Shown here: positions 3,057 through 31,757 of the stretch, piece after piece
Layout of the letters: each line of letters begins with the position of its first letter
Position numbering within the stretch: the stretch's first letter is position 1
Origin: Chromatiaceae bacterium
Lineage (GTDB): Bacteria > Pseudomonadota > Gammaproteobacteria > Chromatiales > Chromatiaceae
NCBI GenBank assembly: GCA_013426805.1
Contig: JACDZG010000017.1
Span: forward strand, 1 to 64,000
Direction: 5' to 3'
DNA: 64,000 bases
Translations under genes and position numbers: made by a program
The notes under the pieces: generated by a model
What the model saw: only the letters and a program-made list of their open reading frames with translations
What the model was told of the DNA's origin: nothing
The model's database searches: none

Positions 3057-3119
3057 AAGGCCAAACGTCCGCGTCCTCCTAAGCCGCTCAAAGACAGGGG
3101 GGTAGCCCACGCACACGGG

Positions 3120-3260
3120 TCAGAAAGTCCGCATCTTCGCCTTCAAATCTGTACGCGAATATACGGACAAGGCGCGCCGTAGGACCCCGCGCAGGCTGTT
3201 TCCGTCGCGTCCCCCTCAGCCAACAATCGGACTCTCGCCGGGGGTCCGCTGGCGTCGGAA
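3120..3260 (-). repeat. Degenerate copy of the sequence at about 7.80-7.87 kb
   Basis: The stretch around 3151-3195 (GTACGCGAATATACGGACAA on plus, then GGCGCGCCGTAGGA) closely matches 7812-7855. In the minus reading both encode a similar tail (RRALSVYSRTD here, RHALYVDSRTA there). I interpret it as the decayed 3' end of a paralogue of the small gene at 7801-8028. No intact frame remains. Confidence 0.5.
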
Positions 3261-3300
3261 GCGCTCACGAATCTGGGTCCTGGGTGATCGCGACTCGGCC

Positions 3301-3583
3301 TTGTGCCGTGCCGCCCACGAGCTATATTTTCGGCGGTTCGGGTAGGTGCACTTACTGGCGATGACCGAGGTAATACCTCAGGGTCGCGTTCCGAACCTCA
3401 GGGCGATCTCCTCGGCAGACGCGCCCTGTTCGTAGATGCCGATGACGCTTTCCAAGGTGACCCGGGTCTGCCCAACGCGGATCAGTCCGCGCGCGTCTGG
3501 TCACGCAAGCACCGGGCCCGCCAGGACCGCTGGCCAAAGCCCTCGCGAAGGAAGGCGTCGTGGGGGGTTCGCGATGTCATCCA
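3301..3583 (-). pseudogene. Rpn-like nuclease start joined to DUF433 antitoxin remnant
   Basis: Starting at the GTG at 3583 the frame reads DDIANP. After a one-base slip in a six-C run it continues HDAFLREGFGQR, the N-terminal signature of Rpn/YhgA-like PD-(D/E)xK nucleases (MxDIxNPHDxFFR). Further on, another frame reads RVTLESVIGIYEQGASAEEIALRFGT, the core of DUF433 antitoxin-like proteins, followed by a shifted LRYYLGHR. At least two frameshifts and stops interrupt the region. The last ~60 bp match the fragment near 8.15 kb. It is therefore decayed accessory DNA with no functional product. Confidence 0.55.
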
Positions 3584-3620
3584 CGGCCCCGAACCCTAGC
3601 GGCTGCGGGGGCAGGGCAAG

Positions 3621-4079
3621 CTAGGCCGCCGCCCTCCTTGTCTTATGCTCAACCGCCCACCCCAGGCAGGCAAGCCACACCGTCTTGGGGATTGGCCTGG
3701 AGCCCGCCAGGTAGTAGTTCAGCATTCGCCGCGAGATACCGATGGCATCCGCCGCGCGCTCCTGGGTGAGTCCATGCTCGGCCATCCAGTTCGCCAGGCG
3801 CTCGTGGCCAATCCCACCGGCCTGCTCGATGGCGAGGTTGCGGAGGTTGTCGGCGGCCATCTCCAGGTCATCTTCGATCCAGACCACGTATCCGCCCAGC
3901 GAGTCCAGGCGTGCTGTGGCGAAGAGCGCGGGATCGGCGAGCACGGCCAGCGCGCGATGCGTGCGGATGGTTGGGGCCAGATCGACGGATAACGTGGACC
4001 CGTCGGCAAAGGTCAGGCGCAGGTCGAACGGCGGCGAGACCTCCAGGGCGGTTAGGGTATGCTGCGGGTCGTGGATCAT
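3621..4079 (-). CDS. DUF2442 protein with C-terminal helix-turn-helix (antitoxin-like)
   Basis: This 152-residue protein has two parts. Residues ~5-85 form a DUF2442 domain (VSPPFDLRLTFADGSTLSVDL, then LGGYVVWIEDDLEMAADNL). Residues ~100-140 form an XRE-like helix-turn-helix (GLTQERAADAIGISRRMLNY). DUF2442 proteins pair with DUF4160 proteins in small toxin-antitoxin-like operons, and the helix-turn-helix suggests this one binds DNA and represses its own operon. Its ATG overlaps the upstream DUF4160 stop by four bases (ATGA). A palindrome in front of the operon (4317-4335) is a good candidate binding site. The antitoxin role is inferred from domain pairing. Confidence 0.75.
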   Translation of the reverse strand: MIHDPQHTLTALEVSPPFDLRLTFADGSTLSVDLAPTIRTHRALAVLADPALFATARLDSLGGYVVWIEDDLEMAADNLRNLAIEQAGGIGHERLANWMAEHGLTQERAADAIGISRRMLNYYLAGSRPIPKTVWLACLGWAVEHKTRRAAA

Positions 4080-4306
4080 GGGTTGCAGTCCTCGAAGATC
4101 TGACGGGCGCGGTCACGGTTTGCGGCGATCCACGCGAGGGCCTCCGCGATCTCGGCGGTGCGCACCGTGCGGCTGACCGTCTCCAGGGTGTCCAGGTAAA
4201 CCAAGGCGTCGCGCCGGTCCGTCAGGACCACATGCACGTGCGCGGGCCGGTGATCGGGCACGTTCACGCGGATGGTCATGCTGGGCAGGCGATGGATCGT
4301 TGGCAT
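4076..4306 (-). CDS. DUF4160 domain protein (putative toxin of the pair)
   Basis: This 76-residue protein begins MPTIHRLPSMTIRV and has the DUF4160 core with RPAHVHV (usually PPHVHV), a short strand pattern and a C-terminal helix (AEIAEALAWIAANRDRARQI). DUF4160 proteins are paired with DUF2442 proteins in putative toxin-antitoxin operons; their biochemical activity is not established. The gene is first in a two-gene operon and overlaps the DUF2442-HTH gene by four bases. The ATG was chosen by family alignment; an upstream in-frame extension would cross the palindromic operator. Confidence 0.75.
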   Translation of the reverse strand: MPTIHRLPSMTIRVNVPDHRPAHVHVVLTDRRDALVYLDTLETVSRTVRTAEIAEALAWIAANRDRARQIFEDCNP

Positions 4307-4316
4307 GGGACGAGTA

Positions 4317-4335
4317 TTGTGCATTCGTTGCACAA
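4317..4335. promoter_or_regulatory. Palindromic operator before the DUF4160/DUF2442 operon
   Basis: A perfect inverted repeat with 7-bp arms TTGTGCA and TGCACAA and a five-base spacer starts 11 bp upstream of the DUF4160 ATG. Its position over the expected promoter fits autorepression by the helix-turn-helix protein encoded second in the operon. Sequence symmetry is seen; the function is inferred. Confidence 0.5.
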
Positions 4336-4374
4336 AGTCGAGGGAACGGCACGCCGCCGACATCCGCACCGACC

Positions 4375-4619
4375 CTAGCCCCCCATCCCCCGCTCCACCG
4401 CCCACCGAACCACATCGACCACCGAATGGTGCCCCAGCTTGTGCATCAGCCGGTTGCGGTAGGTATCCATGGTCCGCGGGCGGATGGCGAGGACCCGTCC
4501 GATTTCCTTGCGGACCGTCCAGCCGCGTCGAACTCGAACTCGGCAAGTTGGCCGGCAAAGGCCTCGACCATCAGGCGCCGGACGCTGTCCCGGTCCGGCG
4601 GGCTTACCAAGTCCACCAT
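4375..4619 (-). pseudogene. LuxR-type helix-turn-helix fragment
   Basis: The last 49 codons (4375-4524) read as the C-terminal DNA-binding domain of NarL/LuxR response regulators: RKEIGRVLAIRPRTMDTYRN then RLMHKLGHHSVVDVVRWA, matching the usual NKEIAxxLxISxRTVETYRxRLMxKL pattern. Upstream the match continues only after a frame change (a frame beginning MVDLVSPPDRDSV at 4619), and no receiver domain is present. It is a broken remnant of a response regulator. Confidence 0.6.
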
Positions 4620-4933
4620 CAACGCTTTCGGCGACCCGAGTTGCACCGCGCTCCCACAGCAAGGGAGCACGGGGCCTCGGCGAGAAATTCAGCGGCCTCG
4701 CTGGACGGGAGCTTGGCCAGGATGCGGGCGACGCGTGCTTCTTCGGCCGCGTCGAGCAGGCCTTCCGCCACCGCGTTGTCCAGCCTGCGCAGCACCGCCA
4801 GTGCCTCGGCATCGCCGAGCAAGCCGAGCAGTCGGCGGGCGCGCGTGGGCTTGAGCCGCAGAATCAGCGCCACGGCCTCGTCGGTTCCGAGATCCGCGAC
4901 GGCCGTGGCGACGGCTTTGCCGCCGTTGCTCAT
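4619..4933 (-). CDS. Hypothetical helical protein (104 aa)
   Basis: An ATG frame of 104 residues is rich in Ala and Leu and forms short paired helices (AVATAVADLG, ALILRLKPTRARRLLGLLG, LAVLRRLDNAVAEGLLDA, ARILAKLPSSEAAEFLAEA). The pattern loosely resembles the helical N-terminal domain of MgtE or FliG-like repeats, but I do not assign it. The last ~20 residues look like read-through into unrelated sequence. Its upstream region is a near copy of the region upstream of the small gene at 7801-8028, so the two share a promoter/leader type. Confidence 0.4.
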   Translation of the reverse strand: MSNGGKAVATAVADLGTDEAVALILRLKPTRARRLLGLLGDAEALAVLRRLDNAVAEGLLDAAEEARVARILAKLPSSEAAEFLAEAPCSLAVGARCNSGRRKR

Positions 4934-5022
4934 CACGGTCGATCGCCTCCCGGCGGGTCCCCACGCGAGGTGACGTGACAAAGCCCGCTGGCGAGCTCGA
5001 TGCGCAGGGGTCTTGTCATGGC
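4934..5022 (-). repeat. Leader repeat, copy 1 (second copy at 8029-8102)
   Basis: About 80 bp directly upstream of the ATG at 4933 match the region upstream of the GTG at 8028. The best block is AAGCCCGCTGGCGAGCTC, present in both. In the second copy the minus strand has a clear TATAAT box (8065-8070); here it has drifted. This looks like a duplicated promoter/leader. Confidence 0.5.
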
Positions 5023-5134
5023 CGGAAGCTTCGCTTGGGGATGTTGGAGCGCAAGACCTGACCCCGCTGCCTTCCCCGCTGGAGAACGCGCCATTGCCAA
5101 GCCGCTCCGGTCCCTTATTCTTCCGGTCGATACC

Positions 5135-7528
5135 TCAACGCAGTACCTCGTCGGCCGGAAGAATAGTCGTCATGAACGTATATGTGTTGCGGGCGACATA
5201 GCGTGGGTCGGTCTTGATCAGCGCCATGAATTCACGGTGCCCGTCCTTCGTGCGTCCGACCAAGCAGCCCGCGCTTGCGCCACCGATGCTACTCTTGTCG
5301 CGATCGTACCCCCAGTGCTGATTGATATAGTGCTGACCAGCATCGACCTTGTCGCCGGTCCGTTTGAAGTCCTTGTTCAGATCGCGATGGACAGGCAGCG
5401 GATTCACCTGCCGCAGCGCCTCATGGTCGTTGCGGTGGAGGCCCACGCGCCAAGCTTTGTATTGGCCAAACTTGATCCGTGCGGCACCCTTTGGATTTAT
5501 CGGGTTCATTGTGTGATTGCGTCCAGGCTCTGTCGTCGCTTCCCAGGTCTTAAGCTGCCCCTTGCCGTCCTTATCCAGCCAGAAGACGCAGCGAAGATCG
5601 TTGAACATGTCTGGCTTGTCGGGATTCAGCGTGCCGTCACTATCGACCCCCTCAAGATAAAGAATACTCTTGGTCTCCGGAACGCGGCAATACCAATACG
5701 AATTTTCCTGCAGGTACTGAATGACCTTGTCGAACCAGTCTCCGGATGCAATCCAATCCGGCAGCTCTTCCAAGGGCGCCATAAGGCTGTTCGCAACGGT
5801 TTCGGTAAACTCCGTGTCGATTGGGATATTGCAGACCGAGCAATGTCGTCTTAGGGCCCAGTCGGAGACACTCCCGAACTGCCCGTCGGCGGGCGGGTCG
5901 AGATAGCCTTGAAACACCAGGGCCTGCTGAATTTCCTTGGTGAGCGCCGCGCGGTTGCGCAGTTCACTCAGGGGTATGCTTCCAGACCAAGCCTGCAGTA
6001 GCGGGCTGGACAGCGCTTCTCGGGCATCGCGTCTTTCAGGCGAACCGGCAGCATCGGCAGCATCGGCAGCATCGGCAGCATCGGCAGCACCGGGGCCGAG
6101 CGCTGCGGCGAAGCTCGGGACATTGCCGCTATCGGACCAATTCTGCTCGGCGCTAAGGCGCATGGCATCGCCGAACCATTCAGTAAACGTCGAGACGTGC
6201 CGACCGGTGTTTGCGGGATAGCAGACCAGCCGCCATTTGTTGGCATTCGCCGCTTCCTTGCGAATCGACCCCGCATTGTAGGCGGCAGCGACGAGCGGCG
6301 GGTCGAATGAGGTCTCGTTACGTTGGCTTGCAATGTAAGCCGTACCGGCCTCGATCGACAGGTTTGGGTCTACTAGATCGTCCCACTTAATCGAGTCACG
6401 GCCGAGTGTCCAGCGCGCGGTACTGACGAGGGTTTGCATCAGACCGACGCTTTCGTCATTCAGCTTTTTCTCAGATCGTCGGGCATTGCGATCACCGCCT
6501 GATTCGGTGGCAATGGTCGCGACGATAAGCTCAACGGGAACACCGTAACTGCGCGCCCAGTCCTGACAGTGCTTGCCGTAACGATCCCAAATGCTCTTGA
6601 TCGTCTTCGGCTCGCCATGGGTTTTTTCGGCGGGAGCACCTTCGATGGAGATGCCATCGTCGATCAGTGCCCAAGAGACACTGTCCGGGAACTTCTTGTG
6701 CGGCGCGGTCAGCGCAGGCAGAATGTCCGCGATCGAGAACCCCGCCGCTTTGGCGGCGGCCCTGTCGACACTCGCCGGTAACGGCCCCTTAGACCGAGGC
6801 TCCGGCTGACCTTGCTGCTGCGCCTCCAGCGGTGCTATAACCTGTTGCTGCCGACGCACTTCGGCCTCGGCAGTCACCTTCGCCAATTGTCCACCAAGCT
6901 CCCGAAAGTTCGAATTGAGAGCATCGGTCTTGTCTTTCGAGCCCTGGCTGCTGCCCCAGTAGAAGGACACGACGTTGCTGGCGACCCCATTGATAAAGCC
7001 TACTGCTGTGCCGATTAATCCGAAGACTGCGATGAGCAATTCAGAATTGGCTTTGGCCAACACCGTATCAGGCACGAAAGTGACAAAGAGCAGTCCGATC
7101 GTCAACGCCAGAAGACCAGCCATGGCGATCCGGACTATTCGCATACCCTCATGGAAAGTCTCCTTTGCTATTCCGGTTTGGACCTGCATTTCGCTAGCGC
7201 GCTTGCGATCCTCAAGCTCGATTTCCTGGAAACGCAGGCCGGACTCGATCTCATAGCGCTGCAGCGCCACCTCGGCCTGGCGCAGGGCGAGGGCGAAGTC
7301 AGGATCTTCGGCGTTCTTCTCGATGACCTTCTCGATCTGTGCCGGGTCAGGCGTAGACTTTCCGGCTGTGTCCGGTCCAGAGTGATTGTCGCCTGGCAGG
7401 TAGGCGTTGAGCGCTGCGGATGCCACGCCACTGGCAATGACATTGAAGGGTGGGGGAAGCGCTAGCGCGGCCAATAGCGTGGGAGCGGAATTGCGTAGCA
7501 AGGTCGTCGCAAGCGTGCCAAGTTTCAT
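5135..7528 (-). CDS. Holin-like / lytic transglycosylase / SxGC-domain fusion protein
   Basis: This 797-residue protein joins parts usually encoded by separate lysis genes. Residues ~60-125 are a charged coiled coil. Two or three hydrophobic segments follow (about 129-152 and 162-190), in the pattern of 3-TM holins of gene-transfer-agent/phage type. Residues ~310-460 are an SLT lytic transglycosylase (catalytic E342 in ATIATESGGDRNARR, then SVGLMQT and AAAYNAGS). Residues ~527-562 resemble a peptidoglycan-binding repeat (IQQALVFQGYLDPPADGQFG). The C-terminal ~180 residues end in HYINQHWGY and GGASAGCLVGR, an SxGC motif like L,D-transpeptidase or related wall-active domains. A (DAA)n linker lies at 482-494. 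No phage structural genes are nearby. It probably acts on the cell wall from the inner membrane; its role in lysis, secretion or competition is open. Confidence 0.75.
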   Translation of the reverse strand: MKLGTLATTLLRNSAPTLLAALALPPPFNVIASGVASAALNAYLPGDNHSGPDTAGKSTPDPAQIEKVIEKNAEDPDFALALRQAEVALQRYEIESGLRFQEIELEDRKRASEMQVQTGIAKETFHEGMRIVRIAMAGLLALTIGLLFVTFVPDTVLAKANSELLIAVFGLIGTAVGFINGVASNVVSFYWGSSQGSKDKTDALNSNFRELGGQLAKVTAEAEVRRQQQVIAPLEAQQQGQPEPRSKGPLPASVDRAAAKAAGFSIADILPALTAPHKKFPDSVSWALIDDGISIEGAPAEKTHGEPKTIKSIWDRYGKHCQDWARSYGVPVELIVATIATESGGDRNARRSEKKLNDESVGLMQTLVSTARWTLGRDSIKWDDLVDPNLSIEAGTAYIASQRNETSFDPPLVAAAYNAGSIRKEAANANKWRLVCYPANTGRHVSTFTEWFGDAMRLSAEQNWSDSGNVPSFAAALGPGAADAADAADAADAAGSPERRDAREALSSPLLQAWSGSIPLSELRNRAALTKEIQQALVFQGYLDPPADGQFGSVSDWALRRHCSVCNIPIDTEFTETVANSLMAPLEELPDWIASGDWFDKVIQYLQENSYWYCRVPETKSILYLEGVDSDGTLNPDKPDMFNDLRCVFWLDKDGKGQLKTWEATTEPGRNHTMNPINPKGAARIKFGQYKAWRVGLHRNDHEALRQVNPLPVHRDLNKDFKRTGDKVDAGQHYINQHWGYDRDKSSIGGASAGCLVGRTKDGHREFMALIKTDPRYVARNTYTFMTTILPADEVLR

Positions 7529-7800
7529 GACTACCTCTCTGGATTTGGTATTCTTGGAAATCGAAACGCGCTAAGTCCAAATGGTGCCATCATCAGTAAC
7601 CCATCGTTTTAAGTAGCTTCCTCGAACGCAACGATTGTTGTTGGCATAATAGTATGAGATGCTGGTATTGAGATGACGCCGCAAATAACAAGGGCGCCGA
7701 GGTCAGGTCTTGCAACCCAACACCCCTCAGCCTCAATTTCTCCAATCGCTCGCAGCCAAAGTTAACCCACGAATAAGGGCCAAAAAGTCCGTTAATTCGC

Positions 7801-8028
7801 CTACAGCGCTGTACGCGAATCTACGTACAAGGCGTGCCGCAGGAGGTCCCCGTCGACATTCCCGTCAGCCGGCAGGCGGAGCATCGCCTGATCGTCGAGG
7901 GGCGCGGTCAGCCCGACTTCCGTGAGCCTCCCGCTCTCGTCCATGGGCGCATGGAATAGCACGCGATCTGGACCACCAACTCGCTCCACTCGGCAGCGCA
8001 AGCCAATCCGCGCGATCTTGCTGGTCAC
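7801..8028 (-). CDS. Hypothetical small protein (75 aa)
   Basis: From a GTG at 8028 a 75-residue frame reads TSKIARIGLRCRVERVGG and DGDLLRHALYVDSRTAL. I do not recognise a family. The upstream leader repeat carries a TATAAT box (8065-8070) about 35 bp before the start, with a weak TTGCAT (8090-8095) at a long 19-bp spacing. A decayed copy of its 3' end lies at 3120-3260. It may be a real accessory gene or itself a remnant. Confidence 0.3.
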   Translation of the reverse strand: MTSKIARIGLRCRVERVGGPDRVLFHAPMDESGRLTEVGLTAPLDDQAMLRLPADGNVDGDLLRHALYVDSRTAL

Positions 8029-8102
8029 GGTAGATCGGCTCGCGGCGGTCCCGCGCGAGTTGACATTATAAAGCCCGCTGGCGAGCTCAATGCAACGGGC
8101 TC
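8029..8102 (-). repeat. Leader repeat, copy 2 (first copy at 4934-5022)
   Basis: This stretch matches 4934-5022 over most of its length, including AAGCCCGCTGGCGAGCTC. It contains the TATAAT box read on the minus strand. It is probably the promoter/leader of the small gene at 7801-8028. Confidence 0.5.
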
Positions 8103-8220
8103 TGGCCCGCCGTGCCGCCAACGAGCGGTGCTTCCGGCGGTTCAGGCAGGTTTGCACTTGCGGGCGATGGCAAAGGGTTTCGCGAAAGACGGCGTCTTGG
8201 GGGTTGGTGATGTCGACCAT
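8103..8220 (-). pseudogene. Rpn-like nuclease N-terminal remnant
   Basis: From the ATG at 8220 the frame reads MVDITNPQDAVFRETLCHRP, the start signature of Rpn/YhgA-like recombination-promoting nucleases (normally about 300 residues). Family similarity stops after ~22 residues and the frame runs on into the leader repeat and the next small gene. The following ~60 bp also match the pseudogene at 3301-3583, so both loci derive from one mobile or duplicated ancestor. Confidence 0.5.
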
Positions 8221-8253
8221 GGCTCCGAACCCTAGCGCCTGCGGGGTCACACG

Positions 8254-8691
8254 CTACAAGCGCAGCAGCCACAGTTCGACCGCGGTCGCGATCTGGTGAT
8301 AGACCGCCTCGCAGGCCTCCCGGCCCTGCCGGTAGGGATCGGGAATCTCGATGCCGCCCCAATGGCCCAGCAGATAGACCTTGCCCGCGCTCGCCGGGGC
8401 CAACTCCAGCAAGTGGCGGCGATGGACGCGCTCCATGACCAATACCAGATCGGCCCACCGCATCAGATCGGGGTCGATCGGTCGAGAGCGATGCGCGCTC
8501 AGGTCCAGACCGTGCCCGGCCGCCACGAGTCGTATCGTCTCATCCGCTGGCTCATCCAAGGCGGCGACCAGGCCGGCGGAACGCACCTTGACCGCCTTGC
8601 CTGACCGCGCCAAGCGATCACGCATCATCACCTCGGCCAACGGGCTGCGGCAGAGGTTTCCAGCACAGATGATCAGCAGGTGGTCGAACAT
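8254..8691 (-). CDS. Low-molecular-weight protein-tyrosine phosphatase
   Basis: This 145-residue cytoplasmic enzyme removes phosphate from tyrosine residues. The P-loop is C9-x5-R15 in IICAGNLCRSPLAE, and the general-acid Asp is in the IPDPYRQG loop near the C-terminus. Length is normal for the Wzb/Etp class, which dephosphorylates BY-kinases controlling exopolysaccharide export. No kinase or polysaccharide export gene is in the window, but the next gene upstream is a giant TPR protein of the kind found with exopolysaccharide/exosortase loci, which supports that context. Downstream lies the decayed Rpn region. Confidence 0.9.
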   Translation of the reverse strand: MFDHLLIICAGNLCRSPLAEVMMRDRLARSGKAVKVRSAGLVAALDEPADETIRLVAAGHGLDLSAHRSRPIDPDLMRWADLVLVMERVHRRHLLELAPASAGKVYLLGHWGGIEIPDPYRQGREACEAVYHQIATAVELWLLRL

Positions 8692-8839
8692 AGCAGGCGA
8701 TCAGATCAGTCGCGGTCGGACAATACGCAACACAATACCCCAGGAGCGCACGAGGTGAAACCAAGGCTGGGGTACGGCAAGGAGAAAGCCCACACTGGCA
8801 GGGTCCCGCGGCGACGATGGCAGTCTTGAGCCGATCGAT

Positions 8840-11725
8840 TCACTCGACCACCGGATCGCGTCCAGCGTCCCGCGCGCCGGACCCCTGTCCAAGGCGCCCC
8901 TGGACCTCCCGGCGCAGCTTGTCCGCCGCTTCCTGCTCCGGGAAGTCGCCGTCCTTGCGCAACAACTGCGTGAGCTCGCGTAACGCGTCTTCGTCACGTC
9001 CCAGGCGCACCAGGGCGTAGGCGATGTGGTAGCTGATCCCAGGCTCGGCAGCAGCGCGGGACTGGGCGTCGCGCAGATAGTTCAAGCCTTCGGCGAACTG
9101 GCCGGCGCGTACCAGCACCCAACCCAGCGTGTCGGTGATCTCAGGGACTGGCGACAGTGCCTGGGCCTTGCGCGCAAGTTCGATCCCCTGCGCATCACCT
9201 TCCTGAGCATAGATCAAGGCCAAGTTATTCAACAAAACGGCGTTATCGGGCGTGCGCAAGAGCGCACGTTGATAGATGGCCTTGGCCTCGGCAACTCGCC
9301 CCTCGCGGAACAGACCCTCGGCCAAGGCTTGTCTGGCGACCCCATCGTCCGGATGTTTTTCTACCCACCGCCGGAGAAAGTCGGTCGCCGGCCCGACGCC
9401 CTGAGCGACCCGCAGGGTCTCGTAGGTCCGGACCGCCAGAATGGGCGACTCGCGCAGTTTCAGTGCCCGCTTGAAGTGTTCGAGCGCTCGCGCATCGTCG
9501 CCGCGCGCGCGTGCAATGGTTCCCAGCAGATGGTCCCCGTAAGGCTCCTGCGGAAAGTCCGTGCGCAAGGTGGTGGCCAGGGTCTCAGCCTGGGTAAGCT
9601 TACCGACCTCGGCGTACATTTCGCCTAACTTGATTCGGGTCGGAAGGTACCGCGGCTGTCCCTCGACCGCTTTTTCGAGGGACCAGATCGCACCATTGCG
9701 GTCACCCGCCTGCCGTTGCAGGAGCGCCAGTTCCAGCAAACCGGCCGCATTGTAACCAGCCAGACTGGAACCCCGTTGCAGCACCACCTGTGCGGTTGCA
9801 CGGTGGCCATTGGCGAGATAAGCCCGGCTCAACGCGACCAACAGATCGAGATCTTCCGGGTCCGCCGCGCGCACTTCAGCCGATTGGACCACTGTCAGCG
9901 CCGCTTCGGGCTGCCGCATCTTCAACAACAAATCGGTCAGGTAGACGGCCACCGGAACCGCGGTCGGGTCCGCGATGACCGCCCGCTCCGCCAATTGCCG
10001 CGCCTGCTCGCGCAGCCCCAGTTGTTCGACCGTCCGCGCCAACAGCAACAGCGCGGAGAGCTGATCCGGGTTGCGAGCCAGCACCCACTGCAAACGGTCG
10101 CGCGCCGCAAGCGGCCGGTTCTCGCGCAGGTCCAACTCCGCAAGATTGAGTTGCGCCGGAACAAAACGCCAGTCCAGGACCACGGCGAGATCAAAGGCCC
10201 AGCGGGCGGCCGCCCGGTTGCCGGCCGCCAACTGGGCGACACCATAGAGGTTCAGATAGGTGATGTTCTGCGGATAGCCTTCCAGCAGTGCGGCGGCAAC
10301 CTTGACGGCCTCCTCGAAACGCCGTTCCTTCAGGTTGGCGACGACCAAGGTCGCGCCCGCCTCCGCATACTGAGGATCGGCCCCGGCGACCGCGCCCAGT
10401 TCCTCGATCGCCTGCGCCTTGCGGCCGAGCCCGAATTGATTGACCGCACGTTGAGTGCGCAGCACCAGATTATCGTCCCCCGCCTCCAGCGCCTGCTGCA
10501 GAAAAAGCGCGGCCTTGACGTGCTGGCCGTCACGCATGAAGGCTTCACCCAACAGTGATAACACCTGCTGATCACCTGGCGCCAGACTCAGTGCCGGTTC
10601 GAGCAGCCTGATGGCCCGCTCATTCTGCTGCCGGTCGAGCGCGATGCGGGCCAAGAGGATCCGCGGACCGACCGTATCGGGGAATTGATCGAGAAATGGC
10701 GCGAGGTAACTGGTTGCCTGGCTCCACTGCTTCAGGCTGTAGCTCACCATACCCGCCAGCAAGAGGGTCGGCGGATGCGCGTCGATCAGTTCACGCGGCA
10801 ACTGGGAGATCAGCGACTCGGTCTGACGCAGGGCGATCTGGGCCAAATCGAATTCTTGCCGACGCGCATGGACAACCGCCTTCAAATAGAAGGAGCGCGG
10901 ATCTCGGGGATAAAGCGTCAGTGATTCTTCCGCGGCAGCCAGTGCCTCATCAAATCGCTCCAGTTCGAGCAAGGCACTGATCCGGGCAATCTGCGCCGGC
11001 AAATAAGCCGGCAGGACTGCGACCGCCCGCTCGAAATCCCGCAGTGCGCCCGACACATCGCTGCGGCCGCGCAGCAGCATCCCCCGCAGCAACCAGGCTC
11101 GCGGATTGTCCGGAGCCAGCGCGACGGCACGACGCGCGTCGCCTGACGCCTCGTTGAGATCGCCTTGCAACATCAGGACATGGATCCGACCCAACATGGC
11201 GCCGACATTCGCGGGATCGCGTTCGCCGGCTTGGTCGAACGCCCGTTGGGCCTCATACAACTGACCGAGTTGCACGTGGGCCTCGCCGCGCAAGGCCAAT
11301 AACTCGGCGTCCTCGTCGGCCAGGGTCCCCAGCGGAAACAACTCGCGGAGCAGCTTGTCGGCACTGCCCTGCAGCAGATAGGAACGGGCGAGCGGGATCA
11401 ACGTCAATGACTGATGAGCCCCGAGCCCATCCGCGATCAGGAGTTCCTTCTCGGCCTTTTCGCCTTGGCCGAGTTGAAGGTAGACGCGAGCGAGCAGCAG
11501 GTGACCAGCGAGGGAAAAGGGGTCTTGCCGCAAGGCGCTGTTGAGGGTGAGGTAGGCGGCAGACGTCTGCCCCGCACTCACCTCGGTCAGCGCCTGTTCG
11601 TACCAGACGGCCGCACTCCCTCGCGCCTGAGTCGGCGACTCAAGGACCGGGTCGGCACCCCAGACCGCAGAGGCAGCCAAGGCGAGACCTGGCAGCAGGG
11701 GTGCGCGACTGGGTGCCGAACGCAT
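8840..11725 (-). CDS. Giant TPR-repeat periplasmic protein (PrsT-like)
   Basis: This 961-residue protein has an N-terminal signal peptide (GLALAASAVWGA) followed almost entirely by tetratricopeptide repeats, visible as recurring A-x-x-x-Y/L-x-x-A-L...P units (for example AKAIYQRALLRTPDNAVLLN, DDALRELTQLL). The size and repeat layout resemble the PEP-CTERM/XrtA-system TPR protein PrsT; PrsT is a lipoprotein, whereas no lipobox cysteine is evident here. It is likely a scaffold in the periplasm for envelope or exopolysaccharide assembly. It starts 18 bp after bamC, so dapA-bamC-this gene probably form one operon, with the phosphatase 148 bp further on. Confidence 0.75.
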   Translation of the reverse strand: MRSAPSRAPLLPGLALAASAVWGADPVLESPTQARGSAAVWYEQALTEVSAGQTSAAYLTLNSALRQDPFSLAGHLLLARVYLQLGQGEKAEKELLIADGLGAHQSLTLIPLARSYLLQGSADKLLRELFPLGTLADEDAELLALRGEAHVQLGQLYEAQRAFDQAGERDPANVGAMLGRIHVLMLQGDLNEASGDARRAVALAPDNPRAWLLRGMLLRGRSDVSGALRDFERAVAVLPAYLPAQIARISALLELERFDEALAAAEESLTLYPRDPRSFYLKAVVHARRQEFDLAQIALRQTESLISQLPRELIDAHPPTLLLAGMVSYSLKQWSQATSYLAPFLDQFPDTVGPRILLARIALDRQQNERAIRLLEPALSLAPGDQQVLSLLGEAFMRDGQHVKAALFLQQALEAGDDNLVLRTQRAVNQFGLGRKAQAIEELGAVAGADPQYAEAGATLVVANLKERRFEEAVKVAAALLEGYPQNITYLNLYGVAQLAAGNRAAARWAFDLAVVLDWRFVPAQLNLAELDLRENRPLAARDRLQWVLARNPDQLSALLLLARTVEQLGLREQARQLAERAVIADPTAVPVAVYLTDLLLKMRQPEAALTVVQSAEVRAADPEDLDLLVALSRAYLANGHRATAQVVLQRGSSLAGYNAAGLLELALLQRQAGDRNGAIWSLEKAVEGQPRYLPTRIKLGEMYAEVGKLTQAETLATTLRTDFPQEPYGDHLLGTIARARGDDARALEHFKRALKLRESPILAVRTYETLRVAQGVGPATDFLRRWVEKHPDDGVARQALAEGLFREGRVAEAKAIYQRALLRTPDNAVLLNNLALIYAQEGDAQGIELARKAQALSPVPEITDTLGWVLVRAGQFAEGLNYLRDAQSRAAAEPGISYHIAYALVRLGRDEDALRELTQLLRKDGDFPEQEAADKLRREVQGRLGQGSGARDAGRDPVVE

Positions 11726-31401: not shown

Positions 31402-31757
31402 GGGGGCGACTTGGTTTCGACGTGGGTCGCGAAACTCGAGGTGCATGCCGAGGTGCGGGTACCTCGTAAAACCGTCCGCAAATTCTAGTTGCCAACGACG
31501 ACAACTACGCTCTCGCTGCTTAATCCCAGCGGGCCTCTGGCCAGTACTTGCCTGTGGGTGCTGGGTTCCAGGGGTAACAACACATAGGATCGCGGCGACG
31601 GGAGTCCGGACCTGAGCTGCTAAAACCTAACGGAATCGCCGACCGTGCGTCCTGCCTTTCGGGCGCGGGAAGGTTAAAAATAATAGAAAGGATAAGCATG
31701 TAGTATCCAACGGCAGAGGGCTTGCGGACGCGGGTTCGATTCCCGCCGCCTCCACCA
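31402..31757 (+). ncRNA. ssrA: Transfer-messenger RNA (tmRNA)
   Basis: The 356-nt RNA rescues stalled ribosomes and tags the nascent peptide. The 5' end GGGGGCGACTTGGTTTCGAC pairs with the 3' end CGGACGCGGGTTCGATTCCC plus GCCGCCTCCACCA to form the tRNA-Ala-like domain. The tag frame is 31491-31523 and encodes ANDDNYALAA followed by TAA, the type seen in gammaproteobacteria. The 3' end of ssrA is a frequent target of integrases, and the region downstream is an accessory island, but I see no second copy of the 3' end in the window. Confidence 0.97.

Follow-up and report, generated by a model that had tools for sequence, protein, structure and literature searches.

Phages usually divide lysis among several genes. 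The one natural fusion of a holin with an endolysin found in print is from Clostridium, namely C. sporogenes protein WP_163247266.1, in which a bacterial holin of the TpeE family is fused in frame to an endolysin and which is taken as support for flipping of the C-terminal part across the membrane (PMC9527704); an engineered holin-endolysin fusion has also been reported (PMC12817945). In the window analysed here, a stretch of 64,000 nucleotides from the draft genome of a Chromatiaceae bacterium (GenBank assembly GCA_013426805.1, contig JACDZG010000017.1, positions 1 to 64,000 of the forward strand), one gene encodes a 797 amino acid (aa) protein, and sequence comparison gives good support for regarding this protein as a lysis cassette in one polypeptide. 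Whether it is a holin-endolysin cassette acting on the cell that produces it is judged to be evenly balanced. As in the C. sporogenes fusion, a holin and a C-terminal enzyme share one frame and the enzyme must cross with the holin, but C. sporogenes is a Gram-positive host (PMC9527704), whereas the window protein has a holin module of family phrog_1544, two enzyme domains and a host that is Gram-negative to judge from its gene content and relatives.

When the draft genome (7.6 Mb in 349 contigs) was searched with the 797 aa protein, only one match was found. NCBIfam gave only below-cut-off matches, to lytic enzymes and none to a transpeptidase, and a PDB sequence search found nothing under E 0.1 (best 0.13). 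From its N-terminus, the protein comprises a holin module (205 residues), an SLT lytic transglycosylase domain that includes Glu342, a weakly matching peptidoglycan-binding domain and, at the C-terminus, an L,D-transpeptidase-like (Ldt-like) domain (Table 1). The full-length AlphaFold2 model, based on 36 aligned sequences, had a mean predicted local distance difference test score (pLDDT) of 78.7 and a predicted template modelling score (pTM) of 0.45, and included short helices at residues 5-39, helices at 62-117 and two long membrane helices (120-151 and 162-194). The peptidoglycan-binding and C-terminal domains were well predicted and the SLT domain was of mixed confidence, with segments of pLDDT below 50 including the linkers 232-263 and 483-495 as well as residues 344-362 and 420-441 within the SLT domain.

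Full-length relatives with about 47-49% identity were found in six other bacteria. Among the best 80 of 179 genome relatives, from which architectures were counted, five genomes carry the full-length protein (Rhizobium cauense, Alloyangia pacifica, two uncultured Rhodobacteraceae and Paracoccus laeviglucosivorans), and one of 15 matching plasmid records, a Rhizobium jaguaris plasmid, reaches a query coverage of 80% or more, a level that none of the 24 matching phage records attains. As the same architecture is present in six other bacteria, an assembly artefact can be ruled out, and a preliminary description of this DNA was right to place several lysis functions on one polypeptide.

The holin module is tied by sequence similarity to real holins through homologues in viral contig L157 and phage DSL-LC04. 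Two clear hydrophobic helices are accompanied by a weaker, proline-broken hydrophobic stretch at residues 14-40, here within a 797 aa protein and not in the short membrane protein typical of such holins, and PHROGs family phrog_1544 matched residues 57-205 at 1.1e-8 in the whole protein and at 3.8e-10 with the isolated module, bearing out the holin-like transmembrane helices of the preliminary description. A first viral scan with the 797 aa protein alone gave no relative; a profile built from residues 1-481 (holin plus SLT) found a relative in two viral contigs among 74 pattern stretches. Contig L157 encodes a 174 aa homologue of the module (30% identity to residues 3-205, BLASTP 7e-13), which matched phrog_1544 at 2.7e-25 and had no Pfam match, and its gene begins four bases before the end of a gene for a 116 aa M15-like protein (PHROGs endolysin 5e-10; Pfam M15_4 below the cut-off only). 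The related protein of phage DSL-LC04, annotated as 'holin of 3TMs', matched PF11351 (GTA_holin_3TM; 30.4 bits, cut-off 24.8), phrog_1544 (7.6e-9) and phrog_3427 'holin', and an M15_3 peptidase gene comes next. The ending [FY][FY]xGSSxGS is common to the module and its phage and viral homologues. Two Vibrio phages also carry the module, with no annotated endolysin next to it.

As a control, a profile of the module (ten rows) was run on 385 genomes of the class to which the Alloyangia carrier belongs and located it in 37 of them, at 41 places in all. At 38 of the 41 places it lies in an open reading frame (ORF) of no more than 236 aa, the three longer ORFs being the known Alloyangia fusion (812 aa) and two others of 315 and 463 aa. 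Among stand-alone holin loci, L161 and L163 have M15-like and wall-hydrolase-like neighbours by eye. Given the predominance of short ORFs and the viral and phage homologues beside endolysin genes, the module appears to be of holin type and, as a rule, to occur on its own. In the window protein, residues 1-205 are homologous to the holins of phage and gene transfer agent (GTA) cassettes with three-transmembrane holins (PF11351, phrog_1544, phrog_3427), but those cassettes normally keep holin and endolysin as separate genes (as in L124 and L157), whereas the window protein fuses them.

The SLT domain matched PF01464 with 64.5 bits (Pfam cut-off 21.3), and realignment of its model revealed an MltE-like fold (Z 10.4; root mean square deviation (rmsd) 3.6 over 146 residues). 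SLT domains conserve the motifs ATES, GLMQT and AAYNAG, the residues of which are invariant or almost so in all six aligned full-length proteins, the window's included; among them Glu342, Ser360, Tyr398 and Asn418 are strictly invariant, and Glu342 is presumed from family knowledge to be the catalytic acid. PF01471 (PG_binding_1) scored 19 bits over residues 530-561, under its cut-off of 23, and 23.8, 27 and 28 bits in the three full-length relatives that were scanned. Of the features described beforehand, the transglycosylase with its presumed catalytic Glu was recovered, and the peptidoglycan-binding-like stretch was seen as a sub-threshold match that rises above the cut-off in relatives.

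The C-terminal domain matched phrog_3000 over residues 603-793 (1.3e-33) and phrog_33083, labelled 'endolysin', over residues 639-780 (6e-13). Predicted alone from 22 sequences, it reached a pLDDT of 95.1 and a pTM of 0.91. The fold assignments of the SLT and C-terminal domains come from realignment of Foldseek candidates, which for the latter gave Pgp2 (Z 8.8, rmsd 4.0, 129 residues), the M. smegmatis Ldt (8.5, 2.6, 106), Csd6 (8.4, 3.8, 122) and DpaA (7.7, 3.5, 128), with 10 of 997 chains at Z 8 or more and a list made up almost wholly of L,D-transpeptidase-fold enzymes; values of Z under 8 may reflect a common arrangement. Most rows of the list were named L,D-transpeptidase by title, 4xxt being titled otherwise, and Pgp2, Csd6, DpaA and 1zat also belong to this group of enzymes. 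The model therefore predicts an L,D-transpeptidase-like fold.

L,D-transpeptidases carry the motif H-X14-17-[S/T]-H-G-C. In the window protein the corresponding motif is H738-X13-S752-A753-G754-C755, which differs in spacing and in the residue before Gly, although the similar L,D-transpeptidase/LD-carboxypeptidase fold and a comparable His-Cys spacing are shared with Pgp2, Csd6, DpaA and the mycobacterial Ldts. His738 and Cys755 were kept in 22 of 22 aligned sequences, the window's included, although for His738 this is in part an effect of how the sequences were chosen, since INQHWGY, one of two patterns used in the search, includes this His; the SxGC domain noted earlier is accordingly present. 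A tblastn match on a Tolypothrix plasmid has serine at both positions, as expected of a cooperating pair. This copy (L020:5797-6612), which is likely inactive, also has a Tat-like signal by eye.

In other proteins the C-terminal domain is joined to different partners, including a phrog_7 endolysin domain in Devosia (L029; 4e-63), presumably of GH24 type, and transglycosylase-like domains in L017, L026, L032 and L033. The same domain is matched by phrog_33083, a phage endolysin family that shares with the window protein a glycan-cutting domain and a phrog_3000-type domain, but in which no holin part was seen and a lysozyme-type domain (as in L029) takes the place of SLT. As the glycan-cutting partners are interchangeable, a second wall-cutting role is favoured over cross-link synthesis for the C-terminal domain. 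Among 98 loci with this domain, 19 have a divergent neighbour gene for a domain here called dom6, which is muramidase-like by residues only and for which (L060, G142) no Pfam, PHROGs or PDB match was found. These 19 loci, mostly cyanobacterial, pair the muramidase-looking gene with a divergent gene for a peptidoglycan-binding domain (PGBD) and an Ldt-like domain (L060:6673-7374 and 7932-8840). Up to 27 loci of the C-terminal domain have NAD-synthesis genes no more than 8 kb away, and at five IMG/VR viral loci (L103:7404-8603 and four similar) a stand-alone C-terminal domain directly follows a staphylococcal-nuclease-like gene.

The topology of the protein was considered from charged residues. 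In all six full-length proteins, 2-4 Lys/Arg precede the membrane hairpin, 0-1 are in the loop and 2-4 follow, which under the positive-inside rule hints that both ends are cytoplasmic and that the enzymes begin on the wrong side of the membrane. An initial cytoplasmic location of the enzyme domains is thus weakly suggested; in canonical holin-endolysin lysis, enzymes likewise start on the cytoplasmic side. In the proposed mechanism, the protein would gather in the inner membrane, its enzymes initially latent on the cytoplasmic side. On a trigger, either assembly of the holin parts or depolarisation, the membrane would be breached or the C-terminal part would flip across it, after which SLT could cut glycan strands and the C-terminal domain cut or edit stem-peptide links, and the wall would yield.

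Table 1. Features of the holin-endolysin fusion gene and its surroundings, in window coordinates
Feature	Coordinates	Strand	Basis
Putative holin-endolysin fusion gene, 797 aa	5135..7528	-	single ORF, ATG at 7528, stop at 5135; six full-length relatives
Holin module, residues 1-205, ends in FYWGSSQGSKDK	6914..7528	-	phrog_1544, viral homologues
Predicted transmembrane helix, residues 120-151	7076..7171	-	hydrophobicity, model
Predicted transmembrane helix, residues 162-194	6947..7045	-	hydrophobicity, model
SLT lytic transglycosylase domain, residues 322-430 (fold match 299-476)	6239..6565	-	PF01464; MltE-like fold
Glu342 codon, presumed catalytic acid of SLT	6503..6505	-	invariant 6/6
9-bp tandem repeat coding Asp-Ala-Ala linker between SLT and peptidoglycan-binding domain	6037..6093	-	repeat search
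Peptidoglycan-binding domain, residues about 520-583	5780..5971	-	PF01471 sub-threshold here, above cut-off in relatives; model
C-terminal L,D-transpeptidase-like domain, residues 599-797	5138..5734	-	phrog_3000, alignment, model, fold
Presumed catalytic pair His738 ... Ser-Ala-Gly-Cys755	5264..5317	-	invariant 22/22
Variable slot, DPRP photolyase-related gene to low-molecular-weight phosphatase gene; caspase genes in congener G142	3057..8251		flank comparison
Left copy of 54-bp direct repeat flanking the gene	4960..5013	+	81% identity to 8050-8103
Right copy of 54-bp direct repeat	8050..8103	+	81% identity to left copy

The gene is sparsely distributed. In the family of the host, 67 of 146 genomes gave a match, confined outside the host's own genome to stretches within query residues 254-496, around SLT, and the full-length protein was found in none of the other 145, five congeners included, absence here meaning no clear full-length match (with up to 7 candidates scored in many genomes). 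The E. coli genomes searched gave no match. At third codon positions the gene has a GC content (GC3) of 0.67; the 19 host-like window ORFs used for comparison, selected because their codon-position bias is strong, have 0.75 or more. The sparse distribution across classes together with the lower GC3 points to horizontal gain of the gene.

The slot that holds the gene in the window was examined in congener G142, where both flanks are kept (91-93% DNA identity) and the slot is filled by two other genes (L144:4593-8741). One encodes a 1091 aa protein with a caspase domain (PF00656), a weak GDSL match below the cut-off, dom6 and Peptidase_M15_3, and the other a 280 aa caspase; the 1091 aa protein is itself another all-in-one envelope-attack protein. 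Its nearest relative among the loci compared is in Verrucomicrobiaceae L053 (54% identity over 592 aa), where the caspase-GDSL protein follows a protein composed of caspase, a sub-threshold PGBD and a C-terminal domain of the window type, with a CHAT-NTPase gene 1 kb upstream (L053, 2845-10621). Further neighbour contexts of relatives of the C-terminal domain, picked by inspection, include animal-haem-peroxidase genes (adjacent in L033, at about 6.7 kb in full-length carrier L022, and by annotation in L017) and a DUF4231/SLATT-like gene in Paracoccus (L025). Neighbourhood genes were mechanical ORFs, those of the GC-rich loci L021-L026 being re-called by codon-position GC. A hidden Markov model (HMM) built from five caspase sequences of L144, L053 and L034 was run on the window and the loci compared at that point, and matched only those three loci and, weakly, L067, so that the caspase linkage is not general. 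The genome under study has one caspase-like match, located elsewhere (contig C341).

An attack on peptidoglycan by effectors is a theme shared with NTP-dependent conflict systems (PMC7159879), and the distant relative in L053 has the caspase and CHAT-NTPase neighbours. However, the flanking ORFs scanned in the window showed no NTPase core and no caspase or EAD component, such components being found only at distant relatives such as L053, and the words 'holin' and 'transpeptidase' are absent from the main text of that report. The PADLOC defence library gave no match to the 797 aa protein, and no conserved caspase-type cleavage site was seen by eye in the linkers of the six full-length sequences.

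As the gene is sparse, apparently acquired, and located where a congener has caspase genes, regulated suicide or lysis in defence or conflict, directed at the producing cell, is considered with moderate confidence to be its most likely use. The suggestion in the preliminary description of an attack on the cell's own wall gains from the caspase genes in the same slot of the congener and from the lack of a recognised immunity gene among the flanking ORFs, both of which are arguments from context. A bolder and rather doubtful proposal is that bacterial programmed cell death has taken over a phage lysis cassette, reduced to a single mobile gene, as its executioner. The cassette would be interchangeable with caspase-lipase-wall-peptidase proteins in the same slot, with its C-terminal domain related to that of a caspase-fused protein, and would be a wall-directed counterpart of caspase-gasdermin systems.

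A number of results weigh against a self-directed lysis cassette of this kind. Pfam gave no holin match, PF11351 included, to the 797 aa protein, and only one of 19 stand-alone holin loci (L169, lysozyme-like) has a neighbour matching one of eight wall-enzyme BLAST queries. Foldseek itself matched neither model at E up to 0.001, leaving nothing significant for the C-terminal model, and no Pfam match to YkuD (PF03734) was found for this domain at E up to 1, which is why it is called Ldt-like and not a YkuD member. The domain searches and structure prediction proposed in the preliminary description thus supported the holin part and the transpeptidase-like fold, but the Pfam holin and YkuD profiles did not match the protein itself. 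With Asp/Glu counted, the net charge is 0 to -2 after the hairpin and 0 to -3 in the loop in all six proteins, so that the flank after the hairpin is no more positive than most of the loops and the topology hint is weak, and the weak N-terminal stretch could supply a third pass that places the enzymes outside; if they are cytoplasmic, they must cross the membrane and remain tethered unless cut. The scan of 8 flanking ORFs revealed neither an NTPase nor a caspase gene, and the caspase HMM matched none of the seven full-length loci.

Two other uses rank behind regulated suicide or lysis. The holin part might flip the fused wall enzyme only once, opening the wall locally for export of a protein or particle from a cell that survives, which is how the natural C. 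sporogenes fusion has been interpreted (PMC9527704), and the low-confidence linkers could let tethered enzymes reach the wall. This non-lytic translocation is thought unlikely, as no gene for an exported partner was recognised among the 8 flanking ORFs, the presence of two enzyme domains points beyond a local opening, and the C. sporogenes holin is of the TpeE family whereas the window's is assigned to phrog_1544. Somewhat less likely again is that the protein lyses producer cells and so frees particles of an extracellular contractile injection system (eCIS). The genome has an eCIS on contig C126 (32000-59300), with Pvc16_N, two sheath-like genes, tube genes, CIS_tube, eCIS_core and genes that are baseplate-like by eye, and in R. 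cauense (L021) the homologue is followed downstream, after 1.9 kb and two intervening ORFs, by eCIS genes. Pvc16_N was found in 3 of 6 genomes with the full-length protein and in 2 of 11 with a relative that lacks the holin part, a suggestive difference in a small sample that ignores kinship. However, Pvc16_N also turned up in 26 of the 146 family genomes and, among the five other congeners, in three, while the full-length protein was found neither in these five nor in the 145 other members of the family; three carriers have neither eCIS marker, and among the six carrier genomes the gene is near an eCIS only in R. cauense, the gene under study being on contig C97 (85,461 bases) and not on C126. 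The R. jaguaris plasmid shares the two-gene neighbourhood of R. cauense (neighbour gene product 84% identical, 1031 aa), but Pvc16_N was not found on this plasmid. Release of eCIS particles as the main function, a candidate prompted by L021 and the host's own cluster, was accordingly downgraded on base rates, and of the particle release named in the preliminary description there stands an eCIS on another contig, set against congeners that have the marker and not the protein. The neighbour in the two Rhizobium species, a 1026-1031 aa protein encoded directly upstream of the lysin (L016:8805-11900 and L021:4814-7894), has membrane segments and a solute-binding-like C-terminus by eye, with no Pfam match for the L016 copy, and is a possible sensor.

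Delivery into rival cells as an antibacterial effector that attacks their wall is improbable. Tle1-like phospholipase genes lie beside relatives of the C-terminal domain in L032 and L034, and Pfam names this family after type VI secretion system effectors; however, no export-marker family was among the Pfam, PHROGs and NCBIfam matches, the N-terminal part is a phage holin, and no immunity-like gene was recognised among the flanking ORFs, the last being a weak point since such genes are diverse. Equally improbable is a decayed prophage remnant that has no present function. The holin, SLT and C-terminal domains all have phage relatives and the gene looks acquired from its GC3, but the fusion is intact in six other bacteria with the presumed catalytic residues kept. 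No phage family was found among the Pfam matches of the 8 flanking ORFs (two of which overlap), in agreement with the earlier remark that phage genes are absent nearby, and the draft genome gave no match to PF04860 (portal) or PF03237 (Terminase_6N), the two prophage markers tried. Release of GTA particles or of a prophage is thus unsupported by those two markers, and the nearby intact prophage that the preliminary description had allowed for received no support from either the markers or the flanking ORFs.

Outside the slot comparison, a query spanning the left copy of the 54-bp repeat found only two good places, with a third match of 74% over 65 bases. The low-coordinate side of the gene has DUF4160, DUF2442-HTH (helix-turn-helix), LuxR-type and MgtE_N ORFs, of which the adjoining DUF2442-HTH and DUF4160 ORFs (window 3621-4366) have an arrangement that could be that of a toxin-antitoxin-like pair. 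A transfer-messenger RNA with the tag ANDDNYALAA is located at window 31402-31757.

The C-terminal domain belongs to a wide family found in cyanobacteria, crAss-like phages and plasmids, for which Pfam gives no fold and whose PHROGs entries are labelled unknown (phrog_3000) or fall inside an endolysin (phrog_33083). A holin tethered to its enzymes must either form a hole or flip the C-terminal domain, and as the holin is of a common type related to those of phages and GTAs and the fusion is present in seven bacteria, the question is directly testable. If it is true that the protein serves suicide, bacterial cell death would gain a wall-breaking executioner borrowed whole from phages.

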